IMG/VR virus record: IMGVR_UViG_3300042876_000365
Coordinates: 1 to 59,330 of that record
Strand: one strand, 5' to 3'
Length of the DNA: 59,330 nt
Source of the DNA: a virus
Below the pieces are notes generated by a model, which saw only the letters and a program-made list of their open reading frames with translations, had not been told where the DNA came from and did not search any database. This document shows, one piece after another, positions 2,243 to 47,832 of the stretch (its first letter is position 1; the number at the start of each line of letters is the position of its first letter). The position numbers and the translations under genes are program-made.

Positions 2243-2287
2243 GCCGTTGTCCTGTGCCCCCTGGGTCAGGGGGTAGAGGAGAGCGGC
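2243..2287 (+). promoter_or_regulatory. Structured RNA leader of the coat gene (copy A1)
   Basis: A 45-nt imperfect hairpin. Outer helix GCCGTT/AGCGGC; a G-G opposition; middle helix TCCT/AGGA; conserved GTG opposite TAG; apical helix CCCCCT/AGGGGG with loop GGGTC. It ends 13 nt before the coat start (2301), with the ribosome site AAGGAG in between. Three more copies lie at 7153, 40368 and 46460, all in front of coat or tail-tube genes, with compensatory changes in every helix. There is no U-tract, so it is not a terminator. Likely a cis-acting mRNA element controlling the most abundant virion proteins. Confidence 0.8.
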
Positions 2288-2300
2288 GGAAGGAGTGGAA

Positions 2301-3518
2301 GTGGCTGACATTTCCGTCGTAAAGACCTACGCCAAGTACATCGCCATGACCGTGGCTCAGGTGATGCGCGGTCTCAACCCGATCACCGCATTCGCCGGCC
2401 AGCCCTCGCTCAAGCTGAGCGGCGCCGACCCGAAGAACGACGCCATCGTCGAGATCTGGGAGCAGGCTTCCGCCGCCCGCGAGCCGGCCGTCGCCGGGAC
2501 GCCCCCGGACGGCGTGATCCAGCGCACGACCGCGGCGGTCAAGATGTTCCACATCGACAACAAGGTGCAGCTGGACAACCAGACCATCGCCCAGGCGATC
2601 GGTACCGGCGCCATCCCGCAGGTGATCAGCCTGCTGGCCGCGAGCGTCTACGAGAAGCTCCAGGCGAAGGTGCTCCCCGAGGTCGTCAACGCGTTCTTCA
2701 ACTACTACGGGACGACCGGGGCGATCCCGAACGACGGGACCGTGATCACCGGGGCCCGCGGGGTCGTCGGCGACCGCTCCCAGGGCTGCTTCGCCCCGGA
2801 CGACGGGCAGCGCGTCCTGCTGCTGGACTCGACGATCTACGGGAGCCTGCTCAACGTCGCGGGGCTCACCGGGTTCTCGAACGTCGGCACCGCGGAGGCC
2901 CTGCGGACCGGCCAGCTCTTGCCGATGCACGGCTTCGGCCGGATCAAGGAGTCCTCGTACTTCACCGGCCTGAACCATACCCTGGGCACCGCGACCGGCG
3001 TGCTCCTCAACGGCGCGCACGCCGCAGGCCTCAACGTCATCAACATCGACACCGCGGCCGGCGCCGGGACCGTGCTCAAGGGCAGCGTCTTCACCATCGC
3101 TGGCAGCACGCAGAAGCACCGCGTCGTCGGCAAGCTCGCCGTGGCCACGACCGGCTACATCGGCCAGCAGTCCTTCGCCGACATGACGCTCGCCAACGGG
3201 GTCGCTCAGGATCTCGTGATCTATCCCCCGCTCCCGGTGGCCCTCGCCGACAACGCGGCGATCACCTTCCTGGCGACGCACGGGATCGGCGGCCTGGCGT
3301 TCCACCCGATGTCCCTGGTCGTCGCTTCGCGGCGGCTGCCCGAGCAGGGGGCCGGCTACGTCGAGGAGTACGTCACGGATTCCGAGCTGAACCTCGACAT
3401 CCGGGTGACCAACTTCGGCGGCTACCTCCAGAACAACTGGGCGGTGGACATCAACGCCGGCGCCGCGGTGGCGATCCCGCGCTTCGGCGGCCGGATCATC
3501 CGCTCCGTCTGGCCGTAA
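2301..3518 (+). CDS. Major capsid protein, P22 coat-like (unit A)
   Basis: A 405-residue coat protein of the HK97 fold in the P22-coat-like branch. Evidence is its place after the scaffold, the N-terminal long helix region, an inserted beta domain around residues 225-300 (GTVLKGSVFTIAG, resembling the P22 insertion domain), and the C-terminal segment ITFLATHGIGGLAFHPMSL typical of this family. Homologous to 40427-41668. Start: GTG at 2301 is preferred over GTG at 2295 because AGGAG lies 5 nt upstream and the unit B protein starts at the equivalent GTG. Preceded by the structured leader and followed by a conserved hairpin. Confidence 0.85.
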   Translation: MADISVVKTYAKYIAMTVAQVMRGLNPITAFAGQPSLKLSGADPKNDAIVEIWEQASAAREPAVAGTPPDGVIQRTTAAVKMFHIDNKVQLDNQTIAQAIGTGAIPQVISLLAASVYEKLQAKVLPEVVNAFFNYYGTTGAIPNDGTVITGARGVVGDRSQGCFAPDDGQRVLLLDSTIYGSLLNVAGLTGFSNVGTAEALRTGQLLPMHGFGRIKESSYFTGLNHTLGTATGVLLNGAHAAGLNVINIDTAAGAGTVLKGSVFTIAGSTQKHRVVGKLAVATTGYIGQQSFADMTLANGVAQDLVIYPPLPVALADNAAITFLATHGIGGLAFHPMSLVVASRRLPEQGAGYVEEYVTDSELNLDIRVTNFGGYLQNNWAVDINAGAAVAIPRFGGRIIRSVWP

Positions 3519-7152: not shown

Positions 7153-7197
7153 CCCGCTGTCCTGTGCCCCCTCGAGGAGGAGGTAGAGGAGAGCGGC
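7153..7197 (+). promoter_or_regulatory. Structured RNA leader of the tail-tube gene (copy A2)
   Basis: Same 45-nt element as at 2243. Outer helix CCCGCT/AGCGGC (one C-C opposition), middle TCCT/AGGA, conserved GTG opposite TAG, apical CCCCCT/AGGAGG (one C-A) with loop CGAGG. It ends 13 nt before ATG 7211, with AAGGAG in the gap. Confidence 0.8.
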
Positions 7198-7210: not shown

Positions 7211-8503
7211 ATGGGTGCATCAGGTTCGGAAATCGTCCTGGCAGCAAAGAAGGCCCAGACGTGGGGGACGCCGGTCCAAGTCGGGGCGAACAACGGAATC
7301 CTGATTCTCCCGGCCAGCGCGATGAAGAGGGACCAGCCGTTCTTCATCGATGACTCTCTCGGCCTGGGCTTCCCGACGGATGGGGACCTCGGCGAGGTGA
7401 CCGTCGACGGCGAGCTCGTCGGCTACATGCGGTATGACTCCCTGGACCTGCTCATTGGCATGGCGATGGGGGCGCACGCCGTCACGCACACCGTGCCGAC
7501 CGCTGGCGCCGGGGGCGCGGCAGCGAGCGGCACGACCACGACCCTGGTGAAGACGGCCGCCGGCTGGGGGGTGGACGCCTACGCCCTCGCGGCCGGCAGG
7601 TTCTACGTGACCGTGACCGCTGGCACGAACGCCGGCATCACCCGCCGCATCATCAGCAACACGGCAACGCAGCTGACCTTCGGCGCGATGCCCGTCGCCT
7701 GCGACGCGACCACGGTCTTCACCATCTCGGGCGCGGCCTCGACGCACGTCTACACCCTTGCCCCGAACACGGACGGGCAGTTCTTCACGCTCGTCGCCAA
7801 GCTCGGCACGATCTACGTCGACGAGATCACGACGGCGAAGTGCGCCGGCTTCACCATCAAGGGGGGGACCGGCCAGCCGATTCAGGTGGCCTTCCGGATC
7901 ATCGGCCACGAACGCAACAGCAACACCGTCGCCGGGACCAACAACAACACGACGATCCTGGCCGTTACGTTTCCCGAGACCGCCAACCGGCTGCTCTACC
8001 GGGACATCAAGTTCCGGATGAACACGAGCAGCGGCGGGGCAATCAGCGACGCCGACCGAATCTACCCGGTCTCCTACGACTTCGCCTATGACCGCGACAT
8101 CCTGGGGGTCTACGGGACTGGCTCGAGCTACAACAACATCGACGAGCCCACGAACAACGGGGATCCCAAGTACGGCCTGAAGTTCGAGCTCGGGCGCCTG
8201 ACCGCCGCCGGGCAAGCCCTGATTGCCGCCAAGGACGCGGGCACCGCTCAGAAGATCGACATCACCTTCACCGGCGCGCTGCTCGCCGGGGCGACGTACC
8301 GCTCGATGCTCATCGAGATCCCGAACGCGAAGTTCTCGTCGGCCTCGGCGCCGATCAAGAAGGGGATCCTCACCGTGCCCGCGGAGATGTCCTTGTTCGC
8401 GCGCTCGGCGGCCCCCACCGGGATGGCGGGGCTCACCTCGCCGTTCCGACTCACCCTCGTCAACGCCTTCGGCGGCGACGTTCTCCAGGAGGCGGTGGCG
8501 TAA
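7211..8503 (+). CDS. Major tail tube protein (unit A)
   Basis: A 430-residue beta-rich protein, homologous throughout to 46519-47832. Its place before the frameshifted chaperone and tape measure marks it as the tail tube subunit, which polymerises around the tape measure. Residues ~95-180 form an inserted module (TLVKTAAGWGVDAY, VTAGTNAGITRRI, LTFGAMPVACDATTVFTIS) that also occurs in the protein at 54100-54660, so it is probably an exposed decoration domain. The C-terminus reads FGGDVLQEAVA, as in unit B. The structured RNA element lies just upstream. Confidence 0.75.
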   Translation: MGASGSEIVLAAKKAQTWGTPVQVGANNGILILPASAMKRDQPFFIDDSLGLGFPTDGDLGEVTVDGELVGYMRYDSLDLLIGMAMGAHAVTHTVPTAGAGGAAASGTTTTLVKTAAGWGVDAYALAAGRFYVTVTAGTNAGITRRIISNTATQLTFGAMPVACDATTVFTISGAASTHVYTLAPNTDGQFFTLVAKLGTIYVDEITTAKCAGFTIKGGTGQPIQVAFRIIGHERNSNTVAGTNNNTTILAVTFPETANRLLYRDIKFRMNTSSGGAISDADRIYPVSYDFAYDRDILGVYGTGSSYNNIDEPTNNGDPKYGLKFELGRLTAAGQALIAAKDAGTAQKIDITFTGALLAGATYRSMLIEIPNAKFSSASAPIKKGILTVPAEMSLFARSAAPTGMAGLTSPFRLTLVNAFGGDVLQEAVA

Positions 8504-15363: not shown

Positions 15364-15654
15364 ATGGCGGGAACCGATCCGGTTACCTGGGATGAACTCG
15401 ATAATTTCTGTAAAGGCCACCAGGGCGAGTGTCAGCGGCTTCGCGAGTCGCAGGGGCAGACGGCAAACGTGAAGATCGAAACCGCCCTCAAGAACATGGC
15501 CGATCAGATCGAGGCGCTCAAGACCTTGCTCGACAGCAAGCTCTACGTTTTGCCTAAGCCGATCCTCTACATGCTGTTGGGCGGTGCGATCTGCGCAGGG
15601 CTCGCTGGCCGCGAGGCCATCTCCTTGGTCACGAAGCATTTCGGGGGAGGGTGA
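15364..15654 (+). CDS. XhlA-like membrane protein with coiled coil (unit A)
   Basis: A 96-residue protein with an N-terminal helical region (residues ~25-60, coiled-coil-like) and one C-terminal membrane segment (YMLLGGAICAGLAG, residues ~73-90). This layout resembles XhlA/hemolysin-type holin partners. It starts just after the tail tip gene and precedes the endolysin. The unit B counterpart at 54660-55097 is longer with the same topology. Confidence 0.6.
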   Translation: MAGTDPVTWDELDNFCKGHQGECQRLRESQGQTANVKIETALKNMADQIEALKTLLDSKLYVLPKPILYMLLGGAICAGLAGREAISLVTKHFGGG

Positions 15655-15658
15655 GGCC

Positions 15659-16150
15659 GTGACCCCGACCAGCTGCCGCGACCCCGAGCTCCTTCACCCG
15701 CTGCTCCGCCCCATCTGGGAGCGCTTCATGCGCCTCGGGCGCGCCGCGGGCCTGGTCCTGGTCTTCACCCGTGGCTTCTCGTCCAGTCGCGACCAGGACG
15801 CGCTCTACCAGGTGGGCCGCCGCGGGATCCCTGGCGAGGGGATCGTCACCAAGGCCAGGGGAGGGCAGAGCTGGCACAACATCGAGCGCGACGGCAAGCC
15901 CGCGGCCCTGGCGTTCGACGTCTGCGTGATGACCGCCGACGGCAAGCGGGTTCTGCCGAGCTCCGCCCCGGAGTGGGACACGCTCGGCCGCATCGCCGAG
16001 TCCCTGGGGCTGACCTGGGGCGGCCGCTTCGGCGACAACCCGGCGACGGCGAGGATCGAGGGGTGGGACAAGGGGCACTGCCAGCTCGACGAATGGGGAT
16101 CCCTGAGTCTCGAACACGCAATGGCCGGGACGGACCCGGCGGAGGTGTGA
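15659..16150 (+). CDS. Endolysin, M15-type peptidase (unit A)
   Basis: A 163-residue cytoplasmic lytic enzyme starting GTG. SRDQDALYQVGRRG and the zinc-site pattern SWHNIERDG...ALAFDVC...GHCQLDEW (ligands His ~71, Asp ~87, His ~141) match the VanY/L-Ala-D-Glu peptidase type M15 family, which cleaves peptidoglycan stem peptides. There is no signal peptide, so release needs a holin. DNA and protein are very close to 55094-55594, much closer than the neighbouring genes. Confidence 0.8.
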   Translation: MTPTSCRDPELLHPLLRPIWERFMRLGRAAGLVLVFTRGFSSSRDQDALYQVGRRGIPGEGIVTKARGGQSWHNIERDGKPAALAFDVCVMTADGKRVLPSSAPEWDTLGRIAESLGLTWGGRFGDNPATARIEGWDKGHCQLDEWGSLSLEHAMAGTDPAEV

Positions 16151-21045: not shown

Positions 21046-21264
21046 CTATAATCCTCTTGGTGACCAATATTGCGTTTGGCTTCCATCACGCTCTGTACTC
21101 CACTCCTCCGGCAGCTCCACCCCCGCGGCCGCGCACTGCTGCACCATGTAGGCCGCGAGTTCGTCGAACGCCCGGCGCGCGTTGTCGAGCAGCTCGAGCA
21201 GGCGCGGGTCGGAGGAGGCGCGGTAGCGGGCGAGGGTGGCCTCGATGTTGTCGGGGGCGATCAT
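21046..21264 (-). CDS. Small helical protein, conserved next to integrase
   Basis: A 72-residue protein starting MIAPDNIEATLARYRA. Its helical core (LLELLDNARRAFDELAAYMV) is encoded by DNA almost identical to 59206-59330 in unit C, where the gene directly precedes and overlaps the integrase. In unit B it is separated from the integrase by the HEPN and Panacea genes. Start overlaps the upstream stop (ATGA). Function unknown; a small recombination directionality or integrase-coupled factor is possible but unproven. Confidence 0.6.
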   Translation of the reverse strand: MIAPDNIEATLARYRASSDPRLLELLDNARRAFDELAAYMVQQCAAAGVELPEEWSTERDGSQTQYWSPRGL

Positions 21265-21941
21265 TGCCACACGGGGACCCATCTTGACGACCCAAAGCGC
21301 CCGCCGTCGAACTTGATGCGGAGGCTCTCTTTGTAGTCGTTCCAGGGGATCTCGTAGGTGATCCACCCACTGACGCGGTCTCCTGGTTCAAGAGTCATCG
21401 ACTTTAGGTCGGGCTCGGTCCTGCTGACGCACCTGGAGAACATTTGGCCCTTTTCGTCTTTGACGACGAAATACGAAGATGCGACGTAGGGAGTCTTTCG
21501 CCCCTTGTTGGCGACCTCGACGAAGATCGACAGGTATTGAAACCCACTCTTTGGCTGCTGCCAATCGTAATCGGCTTTGATGTCGTCCTCGAAGTCTGTC
21601 ACGGAAAACTCGACGCCGTCGCCAAACACATTCGCTGGCGTCTCTCGCTCGATCTTGGTTTCGGCATAGAGTTCCTTGATCTTCTGAATTTCTTTCGTGA
21701 GCTTTTCGAGAACGCTTTCTTGATGCATCAGCTCCATGTCGGCCGTTCTCTGCGCATCGTCGAGCGCCCCGAGCGCGTCTTTGATTTGGTCGAGAGACAT
21801 GTCGTCAATCCGGGCGGCCTTCCTGTGCTCATCGGTGATGTATTTTCGCCACTTATCAGCGGCGTCTTTCTCGGTGTCGGCGCGGAGCGGCGCCGGGGAA
21901 AGGACGAAGGCGGCAAACAAGAACACCAGCGCGATTCTCAC
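21261..21941 (-). CDS. Secreted DUF4352-like protein coupled to repressor
   Basis: A 226-residue protein beginning GTG in a GTGA overlap with the repressor stop, with GGAGG upstream. Residues 1-22 are a signal peptide ending in PLRA. Residues ~75-110 form a coiled coil (MELMHQESVLEKLTKEIQK). The C-terminal domain (QYLSIFVEVANKGRKTPY, YFVVKDEKGQMF, LEPGDRVSGWITYEIP) resembles DUF4352, a beta-sandwich of exported proteins. Cotranscription with the repressor means expression in the lysogen: a superinfection-exclusion or lysogenic-conversion protein is likely. Confidence 0.65.
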   Translation of the reverse strand: MRIALVFLFAAFVLSPAPLRADTEKDAADKWRKYITDEHRKAARIDDMSLDQIKDALGALDDAQRTADMELMHQESVLEKLTKEIQKIKELYAETKIERETPANVFGDGVEFSVTDFEDDIKADYDWQQPKSGFQYLSIFVEVANKGRKTPYVASSYFVVKDEKGQMFSRCVSRTEPDLKSMTLEPGDRVSGWITYEIPWNDYKESLRIKFDGGRFGSSRWVPVWQ

Positions 21942-22645
21942 GCCCACACCCTCCAAGACCAAACCACCCGGCCGACGATGGGCTCGGCCTCGCCCTCCCT
22001 CGCGGGAATGCGCGTCTCGTGGTGCTCGTTACGGTTCTCAGGGATCAGCACCAGATCGGCGCCGTCCCGAGCAACGTACTTGACCGTGCAACCGCCGTCA
22101 AGGCGCACGACATAGAGCCCGCGGCGCACCACCTTGCGGTCGTCGCGATCAACGACGGCCACGGAGCCATCGGGCAGGACCGGGTCCATGCTGTTGCCCT
22201 TGATGCGGACGGCCACGAGGTTCTTTCGCTTGCCGAGCAGGGGCGCGTAGACCCAGGCCCACCCTTCGATCTGGTCGGAAACGACCCTGGCGGCGCCGGC
22301 GGCTACCGCGTCCTCGACAAGGGGAACGGCTCGGAAGTCTTCCGTGCGCTGTCCGGACTCGCCGGCGCTCTGATCGAGAGCGTTCGAGAAGACCACGCGG
22401 GGCTGCGGGAGTTCGTCGGGCGAGAGGCGCGCGGGCGGGTCCTGGCCGGTCAGGAGGTAGTCGGTCGAGACCCCGAGGGCGCGCGCAAGGACGAGAAGCG
22501 CGTCGGCGCCGGGCTTGCTCTTGCCGCTCTCGATGTTGTGCAGGTTTCCCGCGGATGACCCAACTTTCGCAGCTAGGGCCGCCAATGTCATCTTCCGTTC
22601 CTTCCGCAGCCTCTTGACCTGCTCGCCGAGAAAAGTTTCAGACAT
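21938..22645 (-). CDS. CI/LexA-type prophage repressor (unit B)
   Basis: A 235-residue repressor: N-terminal HTH_XRE domain (residues ~8-65, TLAALAAKVGSSAGNLHNIE) and C-terminal S24 peptidase domain with catalytic Ser in KGNSMDPVLPDG (~150) and Lys in GCTVKYV (~188). An Ala-Gly pair in DAVAAGAARVV is the expected self-cleavage site for RecA-induced inactivation. It holds the lytic promoter off in lysogens. A 26-bp inverted repeat overlaps its start codon. Confidence 0.85.
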   Translation of the reverse strand: MSETFLGEQVKRLRKERKMTLAALAAKVGSSAGNLHNIESGKSKPGADALLVLARALGVSTDYLLTGQDPPARLSPDELPQPRVVFSNALDQSAGESGQRTEDFRAVPLVEDAVAAGAARVVSDQIEGWAWVYAPLLGKRKNLVAVRIKGNSMDPVLPDGSVAVVDRDDRKVVRRGLYVVRLDGGCTVKYVARDGADLVLIPENRNEHHETRIPAREGEAEPIVGRVVWSWRVWA

Positions 22646-27042: not shown

Positions 27043-27236
27043 TCAACGTCAGGGACCAGGTCACCGTCGACTACACGATCACCGTTGAAATCGAGTGCGC
27101 GAAGTGCGGGCTCGGGCTGAATGCAGAGGCGCGGCCGAGGCACGGCGTGATCGTCGGCCGCTACAACGTCATCAAGGTCGAGCCGTGCGCCAAGTGCATG
27201 GCCGACGCAGTCAACGAATTCAAGAGGAGGGAGTAG
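27039..27236 (+). CDS. Small zinc-finger protein
   Basis: A 65-residue protein. TVEIECAKCGLGL and VEPCAKCMADA give two CxxC pairs about 30 residues apart, a classic zinc-ribbon layout. Starts at ATG overlapping the previous stop. Confidence 0.6.
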   Translation: MINVRDQVTVDYTITVEIECAKCGLGLNAEARPRHGVIVGRYNVIKVEPCAKCMADAVNEFKRRE

Positions 27237-27239
27237 TCC

Positions 27240-28391
27240 ATGACCACCGATTGCATCGACACCACCGCGGTTGCTGTCGCTCCGAAGCCCGGCGGGCTCC
27301 TGGCCGGAGCGGTCGCACCCGGAGAAATTCTCGGGATCATCGCCCATGTGCATACCGTCATCAAGGACGCGATGAAGGAAGGGATCGACGCCGACTACGG
27401 CGTCCTGCCCGGGACGACCGGTAGGGACGGCAAGCCGCCGAAGAAAGTCCTCTTCAAACCCGGCGCGGAGAAGCTCCTGCTCGCTTTCGGGCTGACGGCG
27501 ATCCCGCGCAAGCCGATCATCAACGAGCTCGAGGGCGGCCACCGGGAAATCATTGTCGAGACCGAGATCCGCTCGATGATCACGGACAGGCTCCACGCCG
27601 TCGGGCTCGGATCCTGCTCGACCATGGAGACCAAGTACCGCTGGCGCAACGCCGAGCGCATCTGCCCGACATGCGGTCAGGGGACCATCATCAAGGGCAA
27701 GGCCGAGTACGGCGGCGGCTGGCTGTGTTTCGCCAGGCGTGGCGGTTGCGGCGCGAAGTTCCCAGAGGGAGCCCCCGACATCGAGGATCAGCAGGTGGGG
27801 AAGGCCGAGAACGCCGACATCGCCGACGTGTACAACACCGTCCTCAAGCTCTCCTCGAAGCGCAGCATGGTTGATGGGACGATCAGGGCGACGGCGTCGT
27901 CGGGGCTCTTCACTCAGGACATGGAAGAGGAGGCAGCAAGGGCCAAGGCTGCCGCAGATGCCGCAGCGAAGGGCAGCGGCGAGAAGGCCAAGGATGCGGC
28001 GACCACCACCAAGAACGGCAGCCGCGCGGCCGCTCCCAAGACGTCGCCATCCGACGCCGCCACCGCCACCGGCTCCCAGGTCGCCCGCGGCATCGTGCAG
28101 CGTGCTTTCCCCAGGGACGAGAGCAAGAAGAAACCATGGGCGTTCTACGTCGGAGAAGACGCCAACCACTGCGACAAGTACACCACGTTCTCGGACACGA
28201 TCGGCAAGGCCGCGGCGAACCTCAAGGGCGCGGACGTCGTCATCACCTGGAACCCCGAGGGCGAGGGCGGGAAGTACCGTACGCTGATGTCGATCTCCGC
28301 GGCGCCGGCCGATGAGGCCGCGACCGATATCCCCGAGCGCACCGCCGAGGACGAGGCCTTCGACCGCGAGCTCGCCGAGAAGGGGCTGTAG
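27240..28391 (+). CDS. Predicted recombination or ssDNA-related protein
   Basis: A 383-residue protein. Residues ~48-90 (DADYGVLPGTT...KVLFKPGAEKLLLAFGL) form a motif common in phage proteins encoded beside recombination nucleases. A zinc ribbon (ICPTCGQGTI...GGCGAKFP) lies at residues ~140-175, an Ala/Lys/Thr-rich linker at ~225-280, and a folded C-terminal domain with FYVGEDANHCDKYTTFSD. Its position before a RecB-like nuclease and an SMC-like ATPase suggests a DNA recombination or annealing role, unproven. Confidence 0.5.
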   Translation: MTTDCIDTTAVAVAPKPGGLLAGAVAPGEILGIIAHVHTVIKDAMKEGIDADYGVLPGTTGRDGKPPKKVLFKPGAEKLLLAFGLTAIPRKPIINELEGGHREIIVETEIRSMITDRLHAVGLGSCSTMETKYRWRNAERICPTCGQGTIIKGKAEYGGGWLCFARRGGCGAKFPEGAPDIEDQQVGKAENADIADVYNTVLKLSSKRSMVDGTIRATASSGLFTQDMEEEAARAKAAADAAAKGSGEKAKDAATTTKNGSRAAAPKTSPSDAATATGSQVARGIVQRAFPRDESKKKPWAFYVGEDANHCDKYTTFSDTIGKAAANLKGADVVITWNPEGEGGKYRTLMSISAAPADEAATDIPERTAEDEAFDRELAEKGL

Positions 28392-33599: not shown

Positions 33600-34175
33600 A
33601 TGAAACAGCCCCGGACCACTTCGATCAAGACGAGCGCCCCGAAGCACGGGGAGACGAAGACGCGGCGAGGGGCTGCCCCATCCAAGAATCCCGTTGGACG
33701 TCCGAAGGACTACGATCCGAACCTGCACCCCTGGCTCGCCGAGACCCTCGCGGCCGCCGGCCTGACCGACGCCGAGATCGCGGGACGGCTCGGCAAGTCC
33801 GAGAAGACCATCGAGAACTGGAAAAAGTACCCCGAATTTTTACAGGCGCTGAGGCGGGGGAAGAAACCTGCCAACGAGCAGGTCAAGCGCAGCCTCTTCC
33901 AGCGCGCCATCGGGTACTCCTACCCCGCCGAAGAGGTCTTTTGCGCGTTCGGGAAGGTGACCAGGGTGGCGACCATGAAGCACTGCCCGCCGGACGTCAC
34001 GGCCGGGATCTTCTGGATGTGCAACCGCGATCGCGAGAACTGGAAGCATACCGCCCACCTGCAGCACAGCGGCGAGATCAAGACGGGGCCCGTGGTGTTC
34101 GTATCAGGGATTCCTGCGGCGGCCGCGCCGGATCCGGCCGATGCCGCAGCCCCATCCCCGGAGGTGGCGCCGTGA
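33600..34175 (+). CDS. Terminase small subunit-like protein 1
   Basis: A 191-residue protein. A basic N-terminus (GRPKDYDP) and the helix-turn-helix AAGLTDAEIAGRLGKSEKTI followed by YPEFLQALRRGKKPANEQVK are typical of small terminases that recognise packaging sites. The tail HSGEIKTGPVVFVSGI closely resembles the tail of the protein at 35451-35852. The gene is separated from the large subunit by a methyltransferase gene. Confidence 0.65.
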   Translation: MKQPRTTSIKTSAPKHGETKTRRGAAPSKNPVGRPKDYDPNLHPWLAETLAAAGLTDAEIAGRLGKSEKTIENWKKYPEFLQALRRGKKPANEQVKRSLFQRAIGYSYPAEEVFCAFGKVTRVATMKHCPPDVTAGIFWMCNRDRENWKHTAHLQHSGEIKTGPVVFVSGIPAAAAPDPADAAAPSPEVAP

Positions 34176-35458
34176 CCAGCGCGACCCCCGCATCACGAGA
34201 GTCAGACGTGAAACCCTCGTCGGTCCTGCTCACCGAGCCGTGGCAGATCGATCGGGTGATCCCGTATGCGCGCAACCCGCGGAAGAACACCGGCGCGGTG
34301 GCGAAGGTCGCCGCCTCGATCCGGGAGTTCGGCTTCCGGCAGCCGATCGTGGTCGACCAGGACGGCGTCGTGATCGTCGGGCACACCCGGCTCCTTGCCG
34401 CGCAGCAGCTCGGGTTCTCCGAGGTCCCCGTGCACGTGGCCACCAACCTGACGCCGGCCCAGGTGAAGGCCTACCGGATCATGGACAACCGCTCGCACGA
34501 GGAGTCCGAGTGGGACGAGGAGCTGCTCCCGCTCGAACTGACCGAACTGCGCGACGAGGGGTTCGATCTGGACCTGACTGGGTTCGACGCCAAGGAGCTC
34601 GCGGGCATCTTCCCCCCGGCGGATGGCGGCGGCCGGGACGTCGAGCCTCAAATCGACCAGGCTGAGGAGCTGCGAGCGCGGTGGGGCGTGGAGCCCGGCC
34701 AGATCTGGGTGCTCGGGGAGCACCGCCTGCTGTGCGGGGACTCGACGAAGGCGGAGGACGTTGAGCGGCTCCTGGGCGACCTTCGCCCGTCGCTGGTCTT
34801 CACGGATCCCCCCTATGGGGTGGCGATTGGGGAGAAGAACCGCCTGATCGGCGCTTCGAACACGGACGACCTGGCCTTGGACACCCTGCCGCCGGGCGAG
34901 CTCGCGGCCGCCCTCCTGCCGGCATTCAAGCTCGTGCGGGAGTTCATGGCGGATGACTGCACGGTATTCGTCACGGCACCCCTGAGCGGCGAGATCGGAG
35001 TGACGATGCTGCTGATGATGCGCGAGGCCGGACTGCCGGTGCGGCATGTGCTCATCTGGAAGAAGAACGCCCCGACCTTCAGCATGGGGCGTCTCGACTA
35101 CGACTACCAGCACGAGCCGATCCTGCTCACCTGGGGAAAGCGGCACAAGCGGCCCATGCTCGGCGCGCATCGCACTTCCGTCTGGGAGATCGATCGCCCC
35201 CGGGCGAGCGTGGAGCACCCGACCATGAAGCCTGTGGCGCTGGTCGAAAACGCGCTCTTGAACAACAGCGACGCCGGGGACCTGGTCTTCGATCCCTTCC
35301 ACGGATCCGGCACCACGCTCGTGGCTTGCGAGAACCAGGGCCGGCGCTGCCGGGCGGTTGAGATCAGCCCCGCCTACGTCGCTGTCGCGCTGCAGCGCTG
35401 GCACGAGCTGACCGGGAAGACCCCCGTGCTGGAGCAGGTGGAGGCCGTGCATGAGTAG
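34172..35458 (+). CDS. ParB-domain DNA methyltransferase fusion
   Basis: A 428-residue protein starting GTG in a GTGA overlap. Residues ~25-115 form a ParB/sulfiredoxin-type domain (RNPRKNTGAVAKVAASIREF, GVVIVGHTRLLAAQQL). Residues ~175-415 form an N4-cytosine/N6-adenine methyltransferase with DPPYG (~211) before FDPFHGSGTT (~372), i.e. beta-class order. Such fusions are frequent in phages next to terminase genes and may mark phage DNA for protection or packaging. Confidence 0.8.
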   Translation: MTSATPASRESDVKPSSVLLTEPWQIDRVIPYARNPRKNTGAVAKVAASIREFGFRQPIVVDQDGVVIVGHTRLLAAQQLGFSEVPVHVATNLTPAQVKAYRIMDNRSHEESEWDEELLPLELTELRDEGFDLDLTGFDAKELAGIFPPADGGGRDVEPQIDQAEELRARWGVEPGQIWVLGEHRLLCGDSTKAEDVERLLGDLRPSLVFTDPPYGVAIGEKNRLIGASNTDDLALDTLPPGELAAALLPAFKLVREFMADDCTVFVTAPLSGEIGVTMLLMMREAGLPVRHVLIWKKNAPTFSMGRLDYDYQHEPILLTWGKRHKRPMLGAHRTSVWEIDRPRASVEHPTMKPVALVENALLNNSDAGDLVFDPFHGSGTTLVACENQGRRCRAVEISPAYVAVALQRWHELTGKTPVLEQVEAVHE

Positions 35459-39547: not shown

Positions 39548-39702
39548 AGATCGGCGACTTCATCTACAGCATCTACGGGTTGCCCGGAGGGGCGATCTTT
39601 CCCCCACGCGCCGCGGCGGAGGCCGAGCGCACAGCAGCACCACGGCCGGTGGAGTCCGGCTATCAAACCCCGGTGGAGTCCGGGAAGGAGCAGGGAACGT
39701 GA
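39544..39702 (+). CDS. Small hypothetical protein (unit B)
   Basis: A 52-residue protein in an ATGA overlap with the MuF gene and GTGA overlap with the scaffold gene. MKIGDFIYSIYGLPGGAIF then a flexible Ala/Pro/Glu tail. Short and specific to unit B; function unknown. Confidence 0.5.
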   Translation: MKIGDFIYSIYGLPGGAIFPPRAAAEAERTAAPRPVESGYQTPVESGKEQGT

Positions 39703-40346
39703 AGATCAGGGACGAAGCGGCAGCGAAGGCAAAGGCGGACGCGATCAAGGCCGGCAAGACCCCCGAAGAGGCCGAGACCATCGGCAGAATCGCGGGTCTG
39801 GAGGCCGAGAACGCCTACCTCAACGGCGAGGTGCAGACCGGCATCACGGAGCGCCAGACGCTCAAGACGGCGCTCAAGGAAGCCGAGCCGTTCATCGCCA
39901 AGGGCAAGGCGGCCGTGGAAGGCGAGAAGACCGCTGCCGAGCAGTTGGCCGAGCTGCAAGGCGAGATCGGCAAGCGGGACGCTGCGCTGATGAGCGAGCG
40001 TCGCGAGACGCGCCTGCGTGGCGCTCTGGCGAAGGCCGGGGTGCGGGCCGATCGCATGGACGCCGCCGTGCGCCTGGTGGACACCGGCAGCCTGACCTAC
40101 GACGAGAAGACCGGGGCGTTCGCCGGCCTGGACGAGGCGGCCACCGGCATCGCCAAGAGCTACCCCGAGTTCGTCGGGGGCGCAGCTCCGGCGCGGAGCA
40201 TCGGGAGCGAGCTGCCCAACAAGGGCGGCGCCGGCGCGCTGACCGCCGAGGAGTACGTCGGCGACGGCACCGGGAAGAGCCTGGACGCCTTCGCCGCGAA
40301 CCAGTCCGCCATCAAGAAGGGGGAGAAGACGCTCGCCGTCGTCTAA
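39699..40346 (+). CDS. Capsid scaffolding protein (unit B)
   Basis: A 215-residue helical protein starting GTG. A long coiled-coil-like region (AGLEAENAYLNGEVQ through AEQLAELQGEIGKRD) and C-terminal PARSIGSELPNKGGAG, the motif shared with the unit A scaffold. Located just before the coat leader. Confidence 0.75.
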   Translation: MKIRDEAAAKAKADAIKAGKTPEEAETIGRIAGLEAENAYLNGEVQTGITERQTLKTALKEAEPFIAKGKAAVEGEKTAAEQLAELQGEIGKRDAALMSERRETRLRGALAKAGVRADRMDAAVRLVDTGSLTYDEKTGAFAGLDEAATGIAKSYPEFVGGAAPARSIGSELPNKGGAGALTAEEYVGDGTGKSLDAFAANQSAIKKGEKTLAVV

Positions 40347-40367
40347 CCCCGAACACAACATCAACCA

Positions 40368-40413
40368 TCCCTTGTCGGGTGCCGACTGACGCCAGCCGGT
40401 AGCCGAGAGGGGA
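40368..40413 (+). promoter_or_regulatory. Structured RNA leader of the coat gene (copy B1)
   Basis: The most diverged copy of the element at 2243. Outer helix TCCCTT/AGGGGA, middle TCGG/CCGA, conserved GTG opposite TAG, apical CCGACTG/CAGCCGG with loop ACGC (one A-C). Every helix differs from copy A1 by compensating changes, while the connecting residues are the same. Ends 13 nt before GTG 40427 with AAGGAG between. Confidence 0.8.
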
Positions 40414-40426
40414 AAGGAGAACGAAA

Positions 40427-41668
40427 GTGGCACTGACCAACAACCTGGACAACGTCAAGCTGCGCGCGCAGTGGCTGGTGAACAACATCGCGCTCAAGTA
40501 CCGCGGCATGAACCCGCTCTCCAAGCTCTCGGGCCAGGCGTTCATGCAGCTCGGCGATCCTCAGAAGCCGATGCAGGACGCCGTCGTCGAAGTCCTCGAG
40601 CCGGTGACCTCGGCGCGCTACCCGGCCGTCCCGGGGACCGCCCCGACCGGCAGCATCAAGAAGACCGAGGCGCAGGTCAAGATGTTCCACGTCGACGACG
40701 GCATCCCCATGTCGCACACGGACATCGACCAGTGCATCGCCTCCGGGGAGGTGCCGGAGATCATCGGCATGCTGGCGGACGGCATCCTCGAGAAGGTGCA
40801 GACGCTCGCGGTCCCGGAGGTCATCAAGGGCACGTTCCAGTACAGCGGCGCCGTCAACGCGCTGCCGGCCCTGGCCGCCGACGTGATCGCCGCCAAGGCC
40901 GCGCTCGAGAATCGCGCCATGGGCATGCACACCCCGCCCGGCAACGGCCGCGCGCTCTGGATGACCCAGGAGTTCAACAACGCGCTGCTCGGCGTCTCGG
41001 AGTACGTGATCGCCTCCAGCGTCGGGGACGCCTCCACGATGGCGACTGGCAAGCTCACGCCGAAGATGGGCTTCAACCAGATGCTCGACACCACCTACCT
41101 CAGCGGCGTCAACGTCACGACCGGGACCGCGACGGGGGTCGTGCTCTCCGGCGCGCACGTCGCCGGGGCCAACGTCCTGAGCCTCGTCACCGCGGCGGGC
41201 GCCGGGACGGTCAAGATCGGCTCCGTCTTCACCCTCGCGGGCTCCACCCAGCGGCACGTGGTGCGCGGCAAGATCACCACGGCGCCCGGGGGCGGCGGCA
41301 GCTTCGCCGGTCGCATGACCTACGCGGACATCACGCTGGTCAACGGCGCCGCGCAGGACTGCGTCATCTACCCGCCGCTGCCCGCGAACCTCGCGGACAC
41401 CACGGCGCTCACCTTCGTCGCCACGCACGGGATCGCCGCGCTGGCGTTCAACCCGCTGGCGCTGGTGTGCGTCGCCCGCCGCTTCCCCGACTACCTGCCG
41501 GGCAGCGGGTGGGTCGGCGCCTACGCGGTCGATCCGGACACGAACATGGCGTTCCGGGTGCACACGTACGGCGACTACATGACCAACGGGTACGCCGTCG
41601 ACGTCTGCGGCGGCATGGCGTGCGCGTCGCCGCGCTGGATGTCGCGGGTCGTGCAGACCCCGGCGTAA
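40427..41668 (+). CDS. Major capsid protein, P22 coat-like (unit B)
   Basis: A 413-residue coat protein homologous to 2301-3518. N-terminal RAQWLVNNIALKYRGMNPLS, insertion-domain-like AGTVKIGSVFTLAGSTQRH, and C-terminal LTFVATHGIAALAFNPLAL. HK97-fold coat of P22 type, assembled on the scaffold encoded just upstream. GTG start with AAGGAGAA upstream. Confidence 0.85.
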   Translation: MALTNNLDNVKLRAQWLVNNIALKYRGMNPLSKLSGQAFMQLGDPQKPMQDAVVEVLEPVTSARYPAVPGTAPTGSIKKTEAQVKMFHVDDGIPMSHTDIDQCIASGEVPEIIGMLADGILEKVQTLAVPEVIKGTFQYSGAVNALPALAADVIAAKAALENRAMGMHTPPGNGRALWMTQEFNNALLGVSEYVIASSVGDASTMATGKLTPKMGFNQMLDTTYLSGVNVTTGTATGVVLSGAHVAGANVLSLVTAAGAGTVKIGSVFTLAGSTQRHVVRGKITTAPGGGGSFAGRMTYADITLVNGAAQDCVIYPPLPANLADTTALTFVATHGIAALAFNPLALVCVARRFPDYLPGSGWVGAYAVDPDTNMAFRVHTYGDYMTNGYAVDVCGGMACASPRWMSRVVQTPA

Positions 41669-46459: not shown

Positions 46460-46504
46460 GCCGTTGTCCTGTGGGCCTTCGCAGAGGGCCTAGAGGAGAG
46501 CGGC
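46460..46504 (+). promoter_or_regulatory. Structured RNA leader of the tail-tube gene (copy B2)
   Basis: Outer helix GCCGTT/AGCGGC, middle TCCT/AGGA, conserved GTG opposite TAG, apical GGCCTT/AGGGCC with loop CGCAG. The apical helix is fully replaced relative to copy A1 yet still pairs. Ends 14 nt before ATG 46519, AAGGAG between. Confidence 0.8.
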
Positions 46505-46518
46505 AGAAGGAGTGAAGG

Positions 46519-47832
46519 ATGAGCGCTACCAGCCGGGAAGTGGTCGTTGGGGCAAGGAAGGGCACCACCTGGGGCACGCCGGTCGTCGTCGGCCCCAACA
46601 ACGGGATTCTTGTTCGCCCCTCGGCGATCGACAAGGACCAGGGCTTCACCACCGACGACTCCCTCGGCCTCGGGGACGCTGTCTCCGGGGACTACGGCGA
46701 GATCAAGGTCGAGGGTTCGCTCGTCGGATACATGCGCTACGACGGCCTGGCTTTGCTGATCGGCATGGCGATGGGCGGGCATTCTCTCGTGCACACCGTA
46801 CCGACCGCCGGCGGGGGCACGGCCGCGAGCGGCACCGCGACGACGCTCGTCAAGACGGCGGCCGGGTGGGGCGTGGACGCACACAAGGACAAGTACGTCA
46901 CGGTCACCGCCGGCACCAACGCGGGCGTGACGCGCAAGATCACGGCGAACACCGCCACGGAGTTGACCTTCGGCGCGATGCCCGCCGCCTGCGATGCCAC
47001 GACGGTCTTTACGATCTCGGGCGCGGCCACCACGCACACCTACACCCTCGCGCCGAACACGGACGGCCAGTTCATCACCGTGCTCTCGAAAATCTCCACG
47101 CTGCTGGTGGAGGAGATCACGTCCGCGAAGGTCGCCGGTTTCACGATCAAGGGTGGCACCGGGAAGCCCGTGGAATTCGTCTTCCCGCTGATCTGCCACG
47201 GGAAAAACATCAACACGACCACGGGCACCAACACGCTCACGACAGCCGCGACGATCACATTCCCCGAGACCGCGAACCGGATGCTTTACCGCGACCTGGT
47301 CTTCCGGATGAACGCGGCGAGCGCCGGCGCGCTGGCCTCCACGGGCGCCACCGGCTACACGGGCGCCAACAACACCGGGGACCGGCTCTTCCCGAACACT
47401 TTCGAGTTCAACTTCAAGCCGGACATCAAGGGGCTGTACGGCTCCGGCAGCGGGGCGGACAACATCGACGAGCCGCGAGTGGAAGGGCTGCCGAACGTCG
47501 GGATGAAGTTCGAGCTCCCGCGAGCGGAGGCGGACGGGCTCGCCGTCGTGCAGGCGCGCGAGACATCTCCGCCGACGCCGCAGAAGTTCGACTTCAAGCT
47601 GACCGGCGCGCTGCTTTCGGGGTCCACGTACCGCTCGTTCTTCTGCGAGGCCCCGAACGCGCGCTTCCTCAAGGCGACGATCCCGATCAAGGACGGGGCG
47701 CTCTCGGTCCCCGTCGAACTCTCGTGCATGGCGGCTGCCGCCGCGCCCACGGGAATGACCGCGCTCACGGCTCGTTTCCGCGTGACGATGGTGGACTCCT
47801 TCGGCGGCGACGTTCTCCAGGAGGCGATCTAA
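46519..47832 (+). CDS. Major tail tube protein (unit B)
   Basis: A 437-residue protein homologous to 7211-8503 over its full length (GARKGTTWGTPVVVGPNNGI, GYMRYDGLALLIGMAMGG, end FGGDVLQEAI). The inserted module is present at ~90-170 (TLVKTAAGWGVDAH, GTNAGVTRKITANTATELTF). Tail tube subunit. Confidence 0.75.
   Translation: MSATSREVVVGARKGTTWGTPVVVGPNNGILVRPSAIDKDQGFTTDDSLGLGDAVSGDYGEIKVEGSLVGYMRYDGLALLIGMAMGGHSLVHTVPTAGGGTAASGTATTLVKTAAGWGVDAHKDKYVTVTAGTNAGVTRKITANTATELTFGAMPAACDATTVFTISGAATTHTYTLAPNTDGQFITVLSKISTLLVEEITSAKVAGFTIKGGTGKPVEFVFPLICHGKNINTTTGTNTLTTAATITFPETANRMLYRDLVFRMNAASAGALASTGATGYTGANNTGDRLFPNTFEFNFKPDIKGLYGSGSGADNIDEPRVEGLPNVGMKFELPRAEADGLAVVQARETSPPTPQKFDFKLTGALLSGSTYRSFFCEAPNARFLKATIPIKDGALSVPVELSCMAAAAAPTGMTALTARFRVTMVDSFGGDVLQEAI

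Follow-up and report, generated by a model that had tools for sequence, protein, structure and literature searches.

Copy B1, the hairpin at positions 40368–40413, is a genuine member of a structured RNA element that is found eight times in four phage units, all uncultured, with one copy before the capsid gene and one before the tail-tube gene of each unit. The window, meaning the whole 59,330-nt stretch of DNA that was analyzed, is a linear IMG/VR virus record in which two related phage units lie at an offset of about 38–40 kb, unit A (1–21235) and unit B (38132–59330); the other two units are the phages G001 and G002, whose copies we designate C and D. We class the element among the structured leaders that adjoin a ribosome-binding site and consider it to be cis-acting in the intergenic leaders of two major virion genes, where it probably serves to control translation. 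The copies in the window and the genes that adjoin them are as follows.

40368..40413, + strand: RNA element copy B1, in the leader of the unit B major capsid gene
40414..40419, + strand: Shine-Dalgarno sequence AAGGAG, with a gap of 0 after hairpin B1
40427..41668, + strand: unit B major capsid gene, P22-coat-like (phrog_283, E 6.4e-22)
39699..40346, + strand: scaffolding protein gene (PF06810, E 8.8e-13), upstream of B1 and stopping before the leader
2243..2287, + strand: RNA element copy A1, in the leader of the unit A major capsid gene (folding z -6.0)
2301..3518, + strand: unit A major capsid gene, P22-coat-like, with its start read as GTG 2301
7153..7197, + strand: RNA element copy A2, in the leader of the unit A tail-tube gene
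7211..8503, + strand: unit A tail-tube gene (phrog_290, tail)
46460..46504, + strand: RNA element copy B2, in the leader of the unit B tail-tube gene
46519..47832, + strand: unit B tail-tube gene, 63% identical to the unit A tail-tube

B1 sits in the 80-nt gap between the end of the scaffolding gene at 40346 and the unit B capsid gene. The first start of the unit A capsid ORF, GTG 2295, overlaps the Shine-Dalgarno (SD) sequence, so that GTG 2301, 5 nt past AAGGAG, is the likely start. We identify the window genes as tail-tube genes because the unit A protein belongs to phrog_290 and because the protein of a relative, L009, matches PF18906 (Phage_tube_2, E 3e-13) and aligns with the window tube protein at 42% identity. 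The initial annotation had described a coat-leader element, which is right for B1 itself but too narrow for the set, as four of the eight copies stand before a tail-tube gene.

The record amounts to one and a half phage genomes. Units A and B are 92–98% identical in some stretches (1–582, 15650–16143 and 21100–21235) and 66–72% identical or unalignable in the remainder; each end of the record lies in a near-identical stretch. Two prophages in tandem may account for this arrangement, as may an assembly that ran round a pair of related genomes, either circular or permuted. A LexA/CI-like repressor is encoded at 21938–22645 on the minus strand, and the phage is therefore probably temperate. At 33941–35458, flanked by the small and large terminase genes, lies an ORF that joins a ParB-like N-terminal domain to a DNA methyltransferase domain.

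All eight copies share a common fold, which consists of an outer helix of 6 bp (P1), a G.G, a middle helix of 4 bp (P2), a second G.G, a U-A pair, a wobble and a variable apical stem; A2 departs from it in lacking the outermost pair and D1 in having one P1 mismatch. B1, whose coordinates and fold as first annotated are confirmed (MFE -32.1 kcal/mol, z -3.97), follows this layout with G.U as the wobble and one A.C mismatch in the apical stem. Constant in every copy are U-A, G.G, U-A and C-G in the outer half and G.G and U-A in the inner half, with two variable pairs separating the C-G of the outer core from the inner G.G. The inner wobble is G.U in seven of the eight copies and A.C in D1; an A.C wobble is isosteric with G.U. 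What had been taken for a GTG/TAG internal loop does keep its bases in B1, but is more aptly described as a G.G mismatch followed by a U-A pair and a G.U wobble. B1 had also been recommended as the best copy for defining what is invariant, and it is informative in this respect, although GTG/TAG itself is not fully invariant, since the A.C wobble of D1 makes it GTA/CAG there.

The comparison of B1 with A1 shows how the fold is maintained. P1 and P2 are of equal length in the two copies, the U.G wobble in P1 is kept, and the two P1 changes are G-C to U-A and G-C to C-G, all as the initial annotation had it. Its further statements, that all three inner pairs of the middle helix and the whole apical helix had changed while every pair was kept, went too far: P2 passes from UCCU/AGGA to UCGG/CCGA, so that two pairs out of four change, and in the apical helix the differences are confined to two of seven positions, one of them compensated and the other broken (C-G in A1, A.C in B1). 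Overall, 6 of the 19 pair positions differ, each on both sides, and all but the broken one still pair. The six changed 5' positions are the partners of the six changed 3' positions, a coincidence with a chance, by placement alone, of 1 in 27,132.

Across the eight copies 92.8% of alignment cells are paired, and eight pairs show changes on both sides, a count that ignores kinship. The covariation score, which likewise ignores kinship among these eight copies, is 0.338 against 0.129 for shuffled alignments (reached in 0 of 500 shuffles), and it does not exceed 0.092 in slid registers. B1 and C1 represent one common change event and hold four of the eight double-changed pairs, so that the suggestion that B1 alone carries most of the covariation is to be reduced to about half, together with C1; several lineages contribute, because B2, D1 and the loop-closing pair of A1/B1 change elsewhere. 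A lack of pairing at these positions in relatives of unit B had been named as the sign of chance agreement, and the pairing is kept in C1.

The most decisive evidence comes from a leave-out test, for which a structure model and a sequence-only model were both built from the six copies without B1 and C1. The structure model finds B1 at 41.4 bits (E 1.8e-9) and C1 at 47.4 bits, whereas the sequence-only model gives no match to B1 at E up to 10 and finds C1 at 18.3 bits; B1 is thus a member by structure. Together with the relatives and the pair counts, this result upholds the view that B1 represents a single conserved RNA element in diverged form. True copies score 53.5–72.8 bits, while a scan for the fixed core alone yields many chance loci, the best of the 79 with bare core letters reaching 18.6 bits.

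The C and D copies come from a core-pattern scan of IMG/VR, which returned two independent true phages, G001 (C) and G002 (D), each with a copy ahead of its tube gene and a second ahead of its capsid gene. Broader pattern scans of IMG/VR gave no further members, species-genome contigs searched by pattern or by tube profile gave no copies, and 50,697 annotated phage records held no tube relative and weak capsid and terminase matches. Three other loci were rejected: L003 has the core letters but is a chance match at 15 bits, outside the set; L005 is a spurious protein match from AT-rich repeats; and L017 (11244–11273, minus strand) is a weak match without the middle of the element, which we take as chance. 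A distant tail-tube gene on L019 has no copy of the element; on the same contig a plain GGCGCC/GGCGCC hairpin at 420–446 stands directly before AGGAGG, possibly an analogous arrangement. No Rfam 15 family reaches its gathering score anywhere in the window, and at B1 the matches are at chance level, the best reaching 18.6 bits where the gathering score is 70. The element was also unmatched in the literature searched, a body that takes in the subscription literature in part.

In all eight copies the hairpin is followed by the SD sequence, AAGGAG, which comes directly after it in B1 and C1 (gap 0 nt) and after 2 nt in the remaining six. When the 47 window ORFs that match a ribosome site are ordered by the folding of their leaders, the four leaders that contain the element take ranks 1–4 (z -6.0 to -4.6), and the best leader without it has a z of -3.8. 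This last, at 27180–27240 before the ORF starting at 27240, has a structure that differs from the element. The predicted pairing of the hairpin is almost wholly internal and leaves the SD outside; when the hairpin region is forced open in the model, the predicted SD accessibility stays similar in most copies, so that a simple role in keeping the SD open is unsupported and a purely passive role becomes less likely. Several familiar devices can be set aside. Masking of the SD is rejected for lack of hairpin–SD pairing. A decoy SD could be seen in the AGAGGAG within P2 of six copies, yet B1 and C1 have CCGA in P2, and a decoy is thus not required. An intrinsic terminator would call for a U-run, of which there is none, AAGGAG following within 0–2 nt instead. 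Finally, a leader-peptide attenuator or mini-ORF does not fit, as not every copy has GTG..TAG in frame (a spacing of 18 nt in B1, in frame, and of 17 nt in A1, not in frame).

In our best reading, a factor that recognizes the core of the element acts through it to control both main virion proteins jointly, at the level of translation (or of mRNA stability). In the mechanism that we infer, a trans-acting factor would recognize the G.G/U-A core in the mRNA with the hairpin placed on the side of the 30S subunit where the mRNA exits, and this recognition would set or coordinate initiation at two cistrons of the late operon, capsid and tube. The output of capsid and tube would probably be raised or coordinated; since the two targets are the proteins likely to be most abundant in the virion, enhancement seems to us a better candidate than repression. 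The genes detectably common to all four phages, whose records may be fragments, lie in the structural module. As no gene outside that module was found in all four, no evident candidate for a dedicated regulator emerges from the phages, and the factor may be of the host or a structural protein; a host ribosomal or RNA-binding protein and a conserved phage structural protein are the candidates.

The main rival to this reading, which we regard as unlikely, is that the element acts in mRNA processing or stability: an RNase such as RNase III would cut at or near the interrupted hairpin of about 18 bp, or the hairpin would cap a new 5' end, with stable capsid and tube mRNAs as the outcome. All copies are indeed intergenic, between cistrons of the same orientation, and in T7-like phages RNase III typically acts on long imperfect intercistronic hairpins. 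The likeness extends to the interruptions and to the late phage mRNA, but the T7-type hairpins are not tied to an SD at 0–2 nt, and processing does not need that constant gap. Moreover, single bases that do not vary and always hold the same position point to specific recognition.

Autogenous repression, in which a virion protein (coat, tube or scaffold) would bind the hairpin beside the SD as the coat protein of MS2 does, appears improbable. It draws on the position of the hairpin directly before the SD of structural genes and on the conservation of the scaffold and tube proteins across the phages. MS2-type coat operators are likewise short hairpins in which particular bases are unpaired, and they lie where a phage structural or replicase gene begins; the present element differs in lying upstream of the SD and in having two G.G in a long stem, and the same type of element stands before two unrelated proteins, capsid and tube. 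The coat genes bear on this point as well. The leader of C1 is almost identical to that of B1, whereas the B and C coat proteins, although both phrog_283, match weakly (35% over 68 residues, E 7e-4), and the coat protein is accordingly a less likely ligand. The coat gene behind C1 (L007, 1195–2358, minus strand, in phage G001) is a clearer P22-type coat (PF11651).

The same comparison could suggest a recombination boundary, a short common sequence at gene borders that would allow capsid and tail modules to be swapped. Within the scaffold gene, at 40179, the DNA of B and C ceases to be similar; the similarity resumes at 40354–40441 (88 bp, 84%) over the leader and the first codons, and is lost in the coat gene, so that the leader forms an island of similarity beside unalignable coat genes. 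We nevertheless hold this explanation to be quite improbable, as it gives no reason to expect compensatory changes, which preserve pairing at the cost of DNA identity. Less probable still is a DNA-level palindrome to which a dimeric regulator would bind, as an operator or promoter. Such a site would agree with imperfect inverted repeats ahead of genes, but here the half-site letters change while complementarity holds, and the element is always tied to an SD. The outer U.G of P1 is replaced by C-G in A2 and C1, and such exchanges, like the G.U wobbles, pair only on the plus-strand RNA and so fit pairing of that RNA. A chance hairpin, common as hairpins are in a GC-rich genome, has a negligible probability, being refuted by the leave-out test and the relatives, with eight copies and covariation also against it.

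Joint control of the two virion genes through a recognized core has partial parallels in known systems. In phage Mu, a stem-loop beside the ribosome-binding site of the late gene mom hides the start site in its loop and is opened by Com. The likeness lies in a phage mRNA stem-loop beside a ribosome-binding site as a translational control site; the differences are that Com acts on the single gene mom and that the present element has its SD outside the hairpin. A search for the zinc-ribbon protein Com (PF10122) gave no match in the three records and none in control genomes either. Mu-gpT-DE and other motifs from comparative genomics are conserved structured RNAs next to a phage head gene, as here, but no Rfam family accounts for the element. 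Leaders of ribosomal-protein operons offer a more general likeness, a structured 5' leader beside the SD that coordinates stoichiometric assembly, with the difference that here one element is copied before two separate cistrons.

The long late mRNAs of tailed phages yield the different virion proteins in widely differing amounts, and to our knowledge the post-transcriptional setting of their ratio has been described in few cases. It is conceivable, though we advance it tentatively, that the element defines a previously undescribed phage RNA regulon, in which one hairpin reused before the capsid and tube genes would fix the ratio of head to tail protein post-transcriptionally. Its double G.G/U-A core would then possibly be recognized by a protein or the ribosome and kept where the coat has diverged beyond DNA recognition, a suggestion that we put at somewhat below even. 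B1, B2 and D1 together separate the bases that are free, in the helices, from those that are fixed, at the G.G and U-A positions with the wobble. A compact hairpin common to exactly the two major virion genes would thus offer a testable handle on this control, for which few mutants are needed.
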